Source: Capnocytophaga bilenii (GTDB lineage Bacteria > Bacteroidota > Bacteroidia > Flavobacteriales > Flavobacteriaceae). Taken from it: a stretch of DNA of 64,000 bases. Positions 10,350-12,077 of this stretch are shown here, piece after piece. The stretch spans positions 214,358-278,357 of the forward strand of contig NZ_JAGDYP010000001.1 in assembly GCF_017565765.1 (NCBI RefSeq). Reading direction: 5' to 3'. Position 1 is the first letter of the stretch. Each line of letters starts with the position of its first letter. The notes beneath the pieces are model-generated. The model was not told the DNA's origin. It saw only the letters and a list, made by a program, of their open reading frames with translations, and did not search any database. A program made the position numbers and the translations under genes.

Positions 10350-10377
10350 TTTATATAGTTCTTGCTGTGTTTTTTAT

Positions 10378-10926
10378 TTAATTCTTCTCTAAAACATAAA
10401 ACAAATGATTGTGTATCAGCCCAGTTAAAGGTGCAATTTGGTTCTCTAAAGAGTGTTGAAAAGCAAAATTACACTTTTCAAGCACGTGCTTAGAAGCTCT
10501 GTTTTGCTCATAAACAACAGCTTTTAATCGCTCTAACCCTAACTGTTCAAAGGCGTATTTAATCATAAGTTTAGAGGCTTCAGTAACATATCCCTTTCCC
10601 CAAAATGGCTCACCTAACCAATATCCTAGTTCAGCTTCATTTTCTTCCAAAGGGCAGTTGCTATTTCCCTGAAAGTGCAACCCTATACTGCCTATAATTG
10701 TATTGTCAGCCAGACAAATAGCAAATATATGCGGCTTGCAAAGAATATGTTCTATAACATATAGGCTTTCTTCTTCGTTTTGGTGAGGATTCCACCCAGT
10801 TATAAGAGCAACATTAGGATTTTTAGCCAATTCATACAAATTAGCACTATCAGAAAGCTGCCACCGGCGAAGTGTAAGTCGTGATGAGGTTAAGGGTATA
10901 TTATTTGTCATTTTATTATGTTGCAT
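10378..10926 (-). CDS. GNAT N-acetyltransferase, RimJ/RimL-like
   Basis: Predicted acetyl-CoA-dependent N-acetyltransferase. Family marks are TSSRLTLRRWQLSDSANLYELA at the N-terminus, the acetyl-CoA loop region YWLGEPFWGKGYVTEASKLM near residue 110, and LGLERLKAVVYEQNRASKHVLEKCNF, the usual RimJ/RimL C-terminal signature. Substrate unknown; relatives modify ribosomal proteins or small amines. The ATG at 10926 follows directly on the U-run of a terminator hairpin; a second ATG at 10911 is an equally possible start. carB follows after 28 bases, so the two are probably cotranscribed and both subject to the upstream leader. Confidence 0.85.
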   Translation of the reverse strand: MQHNKMTNNIPLTSSRLTLRRWQLSDSANLYELAKNPNVALITGWNPHQNEEESLYVIEHILCKPHIFAICLADNTIIGSIGLHFQGNSNCPLEENEAELGYWLGEPFWGKGYVTEASKLMIKYAFEQLGLERLKAVVYEQNRASKHVLEKCNFAFQHSLENQIAPLTGLIHNHLFYVLEKN

Positions 10927-10965
10927 AAAAAAATAGCTACATTTTTCAAAAGAAAAATATAGCTA
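10927..10965 (-). terminator. Strong hairpin and U-run abutting the acetyltransferase start
   Basis: In the minus-strand RNA UAGCUAUAUUUUUC pairs with GAAAAAUGUAGCUA, 14 pairs with one G-U and a UUUU loop, followed by seven U and then AUG. This is a textbook intrinsic terminator, placed between a promoter and the gene it should serve, so it is most likely an attenuator. Confidence 0.8.
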
Positions 10966-11067
10966 CTGCAATGGTAAAGAATATTGATGCCCTGCGTATC
11001 TCTTACGAGTACTGCATATCAAAGCACAAAAGAGTGCTAACTGACTCATATTCTTTAAATTGTTCAT
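10963..11067 (-). CDS. Possible 34-residue leader peptide
   Basis: ATG at 11067 to TAG at 10963, encoding a 34-residue peptide with LALFCALICSTRKRYAGHQ in the middle. The stop codon falls on the 5' edge of the terminator stem, a position where a translating ribosome would affect hairpin formation. Two Arg codons lie close together (CGT AAG AGA), of interest because carB feeds arginine synthesis. The same bases also form good RNA structure, so coding is not established. Confidence 0.25.
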   Translation of the reverse strand: MNNLKNMSQLALFCALICSTRKRYAGHQYSLPLQ

Positions 11068-11091
11068 TTAGTGAGATGTTAAATAATGGGG

Positions 11092-11121
11092 CAAAGATAC
11101 AAAAATAATTTAAATAACAAA
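11092..11121 (-). promoter_or_regulatory. Promoter of the leader-GNAT-carB unit
   Basis: Minus strand: TTTG at 11118-11121, 18-base gap, TATCTTTG at 11092-11099. It lies about 165 bases before the acetyltransferase start, leaving room for the structured leader. Confidence 0.7.
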
Positions 11122-11135
11122 TTATGAATAATGTT

Positions 11136-11552
11136 TTATTTGACAATAGAATCAAGAAATTCTTTTGGAGTTATAACCGAAATATCATCTACTAAAAAAT
11201 CTTTTTGATTTCGTGTAATTATAATGGGTATATTGTATTGTTTAGCAGTGAAATACTGAAATGCATCTTCTAAATCTTTAAAAGCCGAATAGTGAGCTGA
11301 AAAAACTATTTTTTTGTCAAAAGGAAGGATTGATGCAAATTGATAGATGAACTCTAACATTTTTCTTACTTCACTCTCTGTAAAAATTTTTGATAAGATA
11401 TAGTTTATGGTAGCGACAGACAATGATGAGATATAAACAACAATTTGTTTTTCTACACAATAGTTAAATAGCCTTTCTGCATCTTTATAAAAATTTTTGC
11501 GTCTTAATAGAACATCTAATAGTACATTAGTATCTACAAAAATCCTCCTCAT
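11136..11552 (-). CDS. PIN-domain ribonuclease, VapC-like toxin
   Basis: 138 residues with the PIN fold signature: FVDTNVLLDVLLRR at the N-terminus (first catalytic Asp near residue 7), acidic residues in the central KDLEDAFQYFTA, and the late ITRNQKDF. Such proteins are metal-dependent RNases, usually toxins that cut tRNA or rRNA. It starts 2 bases after the stop of a small 78-residue gene, the standard antitoxin-toxin order. Target unknown. Confidence 0.83.
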   Translation of the reverse strand: MRRIFVDTNVLLDVLLRRKNFYKDAERLFNYCVEKQIVVYISSLSVATINYILSKIFTESEVRKMLEFIYQFASILPFDKKIVFSAHYSAFKDLEDAFQYFTAKQYNIPIIITRNQKDFLVDDISVITPKEFLDSIVK

Positions 11553-11554
11553 AA

Positions 11555-11791
11555 TTATATCAAATGTTTTTTTATAAGATAGTTAAATCTTAAAGTATCA
11601 GCATTTATATCTATTTCTTTAGGAACAATTTTATTAAGTTGATCAAAAATAGTATTCATATCAATATGTTTCATTTTCTCCTTCCATTCCGTTTCTTGTT
11701 GGTAAAATTCTTCTAACTGACCTTCGCTTAAATTGTAATCTTCATCATAGAGCTTGTTTTTTTTCAAAACTATTGATTTTTGTATGTTCAT
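11555..11791 (-). CDS. Putative antitoxin of the PIN toxin
   Basis: 78 residues, Lys/Glu-rich, predicted mostly helical, with an acidic central stretch (LSEGQLEEFYQQETEWKEK). I see no classical ribbon-helix-helix or AbrB motif, so the family is not recognised. Size, charge, order and the 2-base gap to the PIN gene make it the likely cognate antitoxin. In such pairs the antitoxin normally represses the shared promoter. Confidence 0.62.
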   Translation of the reverse strand: MNIQKSIVLKKNKLYDEDYNLSEGQLEEFYQQETEWKEKMKHIDMNTIFDQLNKIVPKEIDINADTLRFNYLIKKHLI

Positions 11792-12004: not shown

Positions 12005-12077
12005 AGCGAAAAACGGGTCTCGAACCCGCGACCTCAACCTTGGGAAGGTTGCGCTCTACCAACTGAGCTATTTTCGC
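12005..12077 (-). tRNA. tRNA-Gly (anticodon CCC)
   Basis: Minus strand: acceptor stem GCGAAAA/TTTTCGC, D-arm GCTCAGTTGGTAGAGC, anticodon arm CAACC-TTCCCAA-GGTTG giving CCC at positions 34-36, and T-arm GCGGG-TTCGAGA-CCCGT. CCA is not encoded. Confidence 0.95.

Follow-up and report, generated by a model that had tools for sequence, protein, structure and literature searches.

Our analysis of a 64,000-nucleotide stretch of Capnocytophaga bilenii DNA (the window, by which we mean this stretch at its full length) revealed a real leader upstream of carB, the gene for the large subunit of carbamoyl phosphate synthase, and we put the probability at about one half that this leader is a transcription attenuator coupled to translation, as in Escherichia coli pyrBI. 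The proposal draws on a short reading frame that is open as far as an intrinsic terminator in every genome in which the leader was found, on folding, and on the gene content of the loci, and it has to be weighed against three alternatives that assign the terminator, or the RNA before it, a different role.

Architecture of the leader

The leader lies on the minus strand of the window, and its features are given in Table 1. The promoter, the 10-pair closing stem (P1), and the two inner hairpins (P2 and P3, one of them with a GUAA loop) that a first-pass annotation had described are all present in the sequence, as are its overlapping 34-codon frame and a run of seven uridines (U7, 10933-10927) that directly abuts the AUG, at 10926, of a GNAT acetyltransferase gene. 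The terminator that it had described is likewise there, with the pair count corrected from 14 to the 16 given by a terminator scan. The TAnnTTTG consensus is placed at -12 to -5 in the relevant part of the Flavobacterium psychrophilum transcriptome study (PMC9723704), and transcription of the leader would start near 11087. Short stretches of the promoter region recur at many other sites of the window genome.

Table 1. Features of the carB leader and its surroundings in the window.
Feature	Position	Strand	Description
Promoter	11092..11121	minus	TTTG at 11121-11118, 18-nt spacer, TATCTTTG at 11099-11092; flavobacterial sigma-A type, from sequence
Leader frame	10963..11067	minus	34 codons, MNNLKNMSQLALFCALICSTRKRYAGHQYSLPLQ; its TAG stop lies where the terminator stem begins
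P1 closing stem	10975..11057	minus	UAAAGAAUAU (11057-11048) with AUAUUCUUUA (10984-10975); encloses two hairpins
P2 hairpin	11023..11038	minus	AGCAC/GUGCU; weakly conserved
P3 hairpin	10996..11012	minus	GUACUC-GUAA-GAG(A)UAC; GUAA loop; best kept stem of the leader proper
Intrinsic terminator	10927..10967	minus	16 pairs, arms 10967-10952 and 10947-10932, UUUU loop, U7 run
GNAT acetyltransferase, 182 aa	10378..10926	minus	Pfam Acetyltransf_3, 1e-31; between terminator and carB
carB, carbamoyl phosphate synthase large subunit, 950 aa	7497..10349	minus	Pfam CPSase_L_D2, 1.5e-92
tRNA-Gly (CCC)	12005..12077	minus	ARAGORN, run on this genome's leader locus, gives anticodon CCC

Between 10000 and 12500, three terminator-like sites were observed against 1.0 (sd 1.1) expected, with the leader terminator among them. 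A scan of both strands of the whole window returned 16 terminator-like hairpins, and a short ATG frame ending at the stem accompanies the leader's alone. The first-pass annotation knew of no described RNA class with these features in this position. In the Rfam search that it had called for, release 15 returned, at gathering cut-off, tRNAs only, both in the window and in the nine leader loci introduced below, and at E <= 10 the interval 10850-11150 yielded four matches, all below cut-off, none of them credible and none from a PyrR family.

Distribution across genomes

Among 20 genomes of Capnocytophaga, a genus with bacteria of the mouth, nine were found to carry the leader, namely that of the window (G000), G006, G008, G009, G010, G011, G012, G013, and G018. 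A DNA search at E <= 0.001 had matched 11 of the 20, of which G002 and G019, represented by 31-nt pieces located elsewhere, were dropped. A covariance model (R1) built from seven relatives hit eight true places in the genus, consisting of its seven training sequences and G006, the sole independent one; it missed G012, and its matches in G002 and G019 (E ~0.5) were rejected as chance. Applied with stricter filters to a family sample of 199 genomes from 198 genera, R1 recovered both of the Capnocytophaga contained in it and found the leader in 0 of the 197 genomes from other genera, a count that could overlook distant relatives, since R1 fails to detect even G012, a member of the genus. On these searches, the leader is specific to one group of Capnocytophaga, and because it was not found in 11 of the 20 genus members, carB can do without it, a point against the proposed mechanism.

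Gene content downstream of the leader

The first-pass annotation had presented the leader as that of an acetyltransferase-carB operon, and the comparison of loci does not bear out the acetyltransferase half of this pairing. All nine leader genomes have carB behind the leader and on its strand, whereas the GNAT gene, after whose end carB begins 28 nt further on, occupies this slot in the window genome only and is absent from it in the other eight. The leader's terminator stands directly before carB, with no gene between, in three of the nine (G009, G013, and G018); differing inserted genes, some of them defence-like, separate the two in five, and a remnant does so in one. Besides the GNAT gene, the insertions comprise one long frame of ~569 aa in G008, whose last 198 aa match GmrSD_C and whose N-terminus resembles DUF262 on inspection by eye, in G010 a protein of 312 aa with an RHS-repeat match, an unclassified 244-aa protein in G011, and a protein matching PDDEXK_4 and PADLOC PDC-S26 in G012, while the slot in G006 seems, judged by eye, to contain a relic of the gene present in G011. 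Because the other leader genomes hold other genes or none before carB, the acetyltransferase is, judging from these loci, one of several cargo variants, and the leader belongs with carB.

The slot before carB is used across the genus, by GNAT, GmrSD-like, PD-(D/E)XK (PDC-S26), 312-aa RHS-like, and unclassified genes, one at a time. It is occupied both with and without the leader: at 10350-10926 of the window and in L010, L011, L016, and L017, and also in L032, L033, L035, and L038-L040 (contents of L033 and L038-L040 judged by eye only). We also fetched 80 carB loci from a named genome collection, 75 of them from other genera (L048-L122), and 74 of these 75 had rpmH no more than 700 nt ahead of carB, the exception having just 115 nt of upstream DNA. 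Among the 11 leaderless members of the genus, four (G002, G007, G017, and G019) have rpmH in the ~400 nt preceding carB, and G001 and G005 have it farther upstream, beyond an inserted gene; no rpmH was found within 1,500 nt upstream of carB in the other five. The neighbour of carB is rpmH in other genera versus tRNA-Gly(CCC) in most leader-bearing Capnocytophaga (L009-L017).

Folding and conservation of the leader RNA

The 166-nt leader of the window has a folding energy of -44.5 kcal/mol, compared with an average of -26.1 for shuffles (z -5.42, with 0 of 200 shuffles equal to it), and an 88-nt piece without the terminator gives z -3.55, again with 0 of 200 shuffles as good. A compact fold so far beyond shuffles is what would be expected if P1, P2, and P3 formed a ligand- or protein-binding RNA, whether a new riboswitch or a PyrR target, that controls the terminator, an alternative that we consider unlikely on the balance of what follows. 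Specifically, the relatives do not fold to the same degree: when the nine leaders were folded singly without their terminators, z ranged from a modest -2.55 to +0.05, with G006 and G011 at shuffle level.

The conservation of individual stems points both ways. P3 is almost invariant, with 98.1% of cells paired across nine genomes, a single broken cell (G012), and an nnAA loop in eight of the nine, which favors a binding RNA; it is kept even in G011, despite the shifted frame of that leader. Each pair-keeping change in P3 yields a U-G pair on the minus strand, a pattern suggesting that selection acts on the minus-strand RNA. The structure counts for P1, P2, and P3 together rest on seven of the nine leaders, G006 and G012 being misaligned in the nine-sequence alignment. 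The minimum-energy folds of seven of nine genomes include P1, even though the position of its 5' arm shifts relative to the leader ATG, again as a binding RNA would have it, and P1 is absent in G006 and G012, where it is weak. Against this, P1 beat shuffled 5' segments at P < 0.05 in only four of nine (the window, G011, G013, and G018; 0.052 in G008). Since its core pairs are invariant in the seven aligned relatives, P1 covariation is uninformative. P2 also counts against a binding RNA, with just 74.3% of cells paired and one doubly changed pair whose score falls within the shuffle range.

The terminator has 96.9% of cells paired among eight distinct sequences (six from leaders and two from tRNA-Gly terminators), with one double-change pair (U-A to C-G). 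Covariation did not exceed shuffles in any set, the observed score being reached by 141 of 500 shuffles for P1-P2-P3, 115 of 500 for the terminator, and 500 of 500 for P3. Hence the check on stem conservation and covariation in relatives that had been suggested for this leader came out divided, in that P3 is conserved while covariation of P1, P2, and P3 beyond shuffles was not seen.

The leader reading frame

A frame from a conserved ATG is open to the terminator in all nine leaders, at 33-43 codons and despite indels, and the other two frames each carry at least one stop in all nine. Its stop codon falls at -3, 0, +17, or +26 nt from the start of the stem. The distance from the ATG to P3 is 55, 43, or 40 nt, all in the same frame, in eight genomes and 56 nt in G011; downstream of P3 the frame differs among genomes, still without an early stop. 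Shuffled leaders stay open with P 0.05-0.19 (eight genomes, with G010 left out), and the neutral joint probability of an open frame, taken as a product over eight tree edges, is 1.4e-4, a rough figure from a simple model in which edges are independent. Because this frame is open in nine of nine, and is the sole such frame among the 16 terminator-like hairpins of the window, the comparison speaks for selection that keeps the frame open, for a leader that is probably translated, and for a peptide whose sequence itself matters little; the peptide varies strongly between relatives.

These peptides also bear on whether the leader could work by amino-acid-specific attenuation, with ribosomes stalling at hungry codons, for example those for arginine. 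The leader peptide is short, as such a mechanism would have it, and carries Lys-Arg mid-peptide in seven of nine genomes. However, no single regulatory amino-acid run was seen by eye in the nine peptides, their divergence extends to G011 reading P3 in another frame, and the frame ends at the terminator or within it, whereas amino-acid attenuators have their terminators more than 20 bp away, as stated in part of an E. coli study (PMC4824070). Given also that the leader genomes lack detectable argG and have ornithine carbamoyltransferase (OTCase) matches only below cut-off, we regard this alternative as very improbable.

A proposed mechanism of translation-coupled attenuation

In the mechanism that we favor, RNA polymerase would start near 11087 and transcribe the leader, in which the 34-codon frame runs up to the base of the terminator. 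With the polymerase ahead of the ribosome, the terminator would form, and transcription would stop before carB and any inserted gene. If the U-rich stretch (AUAUUCUUU... together with the AUUUUUCUUUU tract within the terminator) delayed the polymerase, for example at low UTP, the first ribosome would catch up and cover the terminator's 5' arm, so that transcription would continue into carB. Translation of the frame, a decisive role for the ribosome, and UTP or pyrimidine supply as the signal are all three inferred here, and P3 (11012-10996) might, at a guess, serve for pausing or pacing.

When the footprint of a ribosome was masked at the stop codon, 0 counted terminator pairs were left in eight of nine leaders and four in G008; with the mask at the start codon, 14 terminator pairs were left in all nine. 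The minimum-energy folds of the nine leaders all keep the terminator and contain no RNA antiterminator. Further, P1 and the terminator coexist in the fold, and because the fold holds both together, P1 does not switch the terminator; the one competing helix that was tested reached -3.0 to -5.6 kcal/mol versus -16.7 to -20.0 for the terminator, although ligand-bound folds are invisible to such folding. Both results argue against a binding RNA, as do the restriction of the element to a single gene in a single Capnocytophaga group and the finding that, tRNAs aside, neither the window nor the nine loci gave an Rfam match above cut-off. The leader had initially been read as either a riboswitch or a peptide attenuator, and it is the attenuator that is strengthened: because the open frame reaches the terminator in nine of nine (stop at -3 to +26 nt) and the folds lack an antiterminator, translation-coupled attenuation fits better than a riboswitch, which becomes the less likely of the two on this sequence evidence. 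Ribosome coupling alone does not explain the conservation of P3, that in G011 included.

Work in E. coli suggests how such coupling would behave. As reported there (PMC4824070), a terminator can be repressed by a ribosome sitting on a stop codon no more than about 27 nt away, while the terminator of pyrBI, which is located within the leader gene, shows no such repression at normal UTP. Terminators less than 100 bp into a coding region are also reported to escape the ribosome for the most part, except where pausing sites provide coupling between the two. Because the Capnocytophaga stem begins 85-105 nt past the leader ATG, termination would be the default, and pausing would be needed for read-through. 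The 30 nt before the stem have a U content of 0.30-0.43, which is not extreme, and U-rich tracts are visible. The leader shares its U-rich terminator arm with the terminators that follow tRNA-Gly in G006 and G012, and the arm was therefore not necessarily shaped for UTP sensing.

Pyrimidine or arginine as the candidate signal

Of the candidate signals first put forward (arginine, pyrimidine, and glutamine), two can be compared through the pathways that carB could feed. argG was found in none of the nine leader genomes and in one of 20 across the genus (G017, leaderless), and the OTCase model scored above cut-off in 0 of the 20 genus genomes; the weak OTCase matches in G000 sit at the place of pyrB, and a better second place exists only in G017, the genome that has argG. 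Because argG was not found, and OTCase stayed below cut-off, in the leader genomes, carB most likely serves pyrimidine synthesis there, and pyrimidine (UTP) appears a likelier signal than arginine. Of these two signals, pyrimidine is retained and arginine disfavored. As an observation on the genus as a whole, most of it probably cannot make arginine (argG in 1 of 20, OTCase above cut-off in 0 of 20).

A pyrimidine signal need not act through the ribosome. A PyrR homologue is encoded (180 bits versus a cut-off of 138), so a protein-RNA mechanism is possible, and the homologue adds to the case for a binding RNA. In Bacillus, pyr attenuators are PyrR-dependent, with a leader terminator before a pyrimidine gene. 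The Capnocytophaga locus is alike in having a pyrimidine gene with a leader terminator and a PyrR homologue in the genome, and unlike in having no Rfam PyrR match at E <= 10, no anti-antiterminator fold, and an open leader frame. PyrR was set aside as the regulator, the homologue being present but no binding site being found for it. The pyrB and carA genes of the same genome have, by eye, short upstream regions with no such leader, a further point against a binding RNA and, since control would then act on carB alone, against translation-coupled attenuation as well.

The tRNA-Gly(CCC) neighbor and a possible origin of the terminator

tRNA-Gly(CCC) lies within the fetched locus of eight of the nine leader genomes, with G018 as the exception. 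The leader follows it by a few dozen bases, with no TAnnTTTG box visible between them, in G008, G009, G010, and G011, and with a near-match box (TATCTTTC) between them in G013. The two are separated by a PIN gene with its small partner in the window, and the leader has its own promoter box away from the tRNA in the window, G006, and G018. In G006 and G012, tRNA-Gly has its own terminator, near-identical to the leader's, which suggests that the terminator of the attenuator arose from that of tRNA-Gly or was copied along with it. The PIN-domain gene with its small upstream partner, a toxin-antitoxin-like pair at 11136-11791 of the window, also occurs in G012 (L017, 777-1438; by eye).

Such a terminator could equally be a leftover of tRNA-Gly(CCC) after rearrangement, with a non-regulatory spacer and with carB expressed by constitutive read-through. 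The near-identical terminators in G006 and G012, and the four leaders that follow the tRNA with no box visible between, fit this account. It does not predict that P3 and the open frame would be conserved, as they are, also away from the tRNA and behind a promoter box of their own (the window, G006, and G018), and we hold it to be improbable, to much the same degree as a binding RNA. Returning to translation-coupled attenuation, one history that would connect these observations is that carB moved beside tRNA-Gly(CCC), that the spacer and the tRNA terminator became a UTP-sensing, ribosome-coupled attenuator, and that foreign genes taken up by the slot (for a GmrSD-like protein, a PD-(D/E)XK nuclease, or an acetyltransferase) came under pyrimidine control together with carB; as a whole, we consider this sequence of events unlikely.

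Relation to known attenuators and implications

The pyrBI attenuator of E. coli is UTP-sensitive and translation-coupled. The Capnocytophaga leader resembles it in preceding a gene of the same pathway, in having a short leader frame that reaches or enters the terminator, in the U-rich tract before and in the terminator, and in needing no RNA antiterminator. It differs in its phylum and its target, carB, and in its conserved internal hairpin, its tRNA-gene-like terminator, and a UTP response that is putative here; its leader frame is also shorter, at 33-43 codons compared with the 135-bp leader gene of pyrBI (PMC4824070). Closer relatives offer a different parallel. The F. psychrophilum transcriptome is reported to contain 64 structured 5' regions and leader-peptide attenuation before amino-acid operons, in a section that does not mention carB (PMC9723704). 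Those attenuators likewise join a leader peptide to a terminator in a flavobacterium, unlike the Capnocytophaga leader in that the latter has no regulatory codon run, has a stop that touches the terminator, and belongs to the pyrimidine pathway. A literature search, from which most subscription journals were out of reach, found, among the papers listed, no description of this leader and no pyrBI-like attenuator for pyrimidine genes in Bacteroidota.

The correction to the annotation matters most, in that the leader goes with carB and not with the acetyltransferase. If the proposed mechanism is true, the leader would be a pyrBI-like, ribosome-coupled attenuator in Bacteroidota whose evolutionary origin is visible beside a tRNA gene. 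Further, the differing genes in the slot, some of them of defence type, would then have been placed behind a host attenuator, and their expression would track the nucleotide supply of the host.
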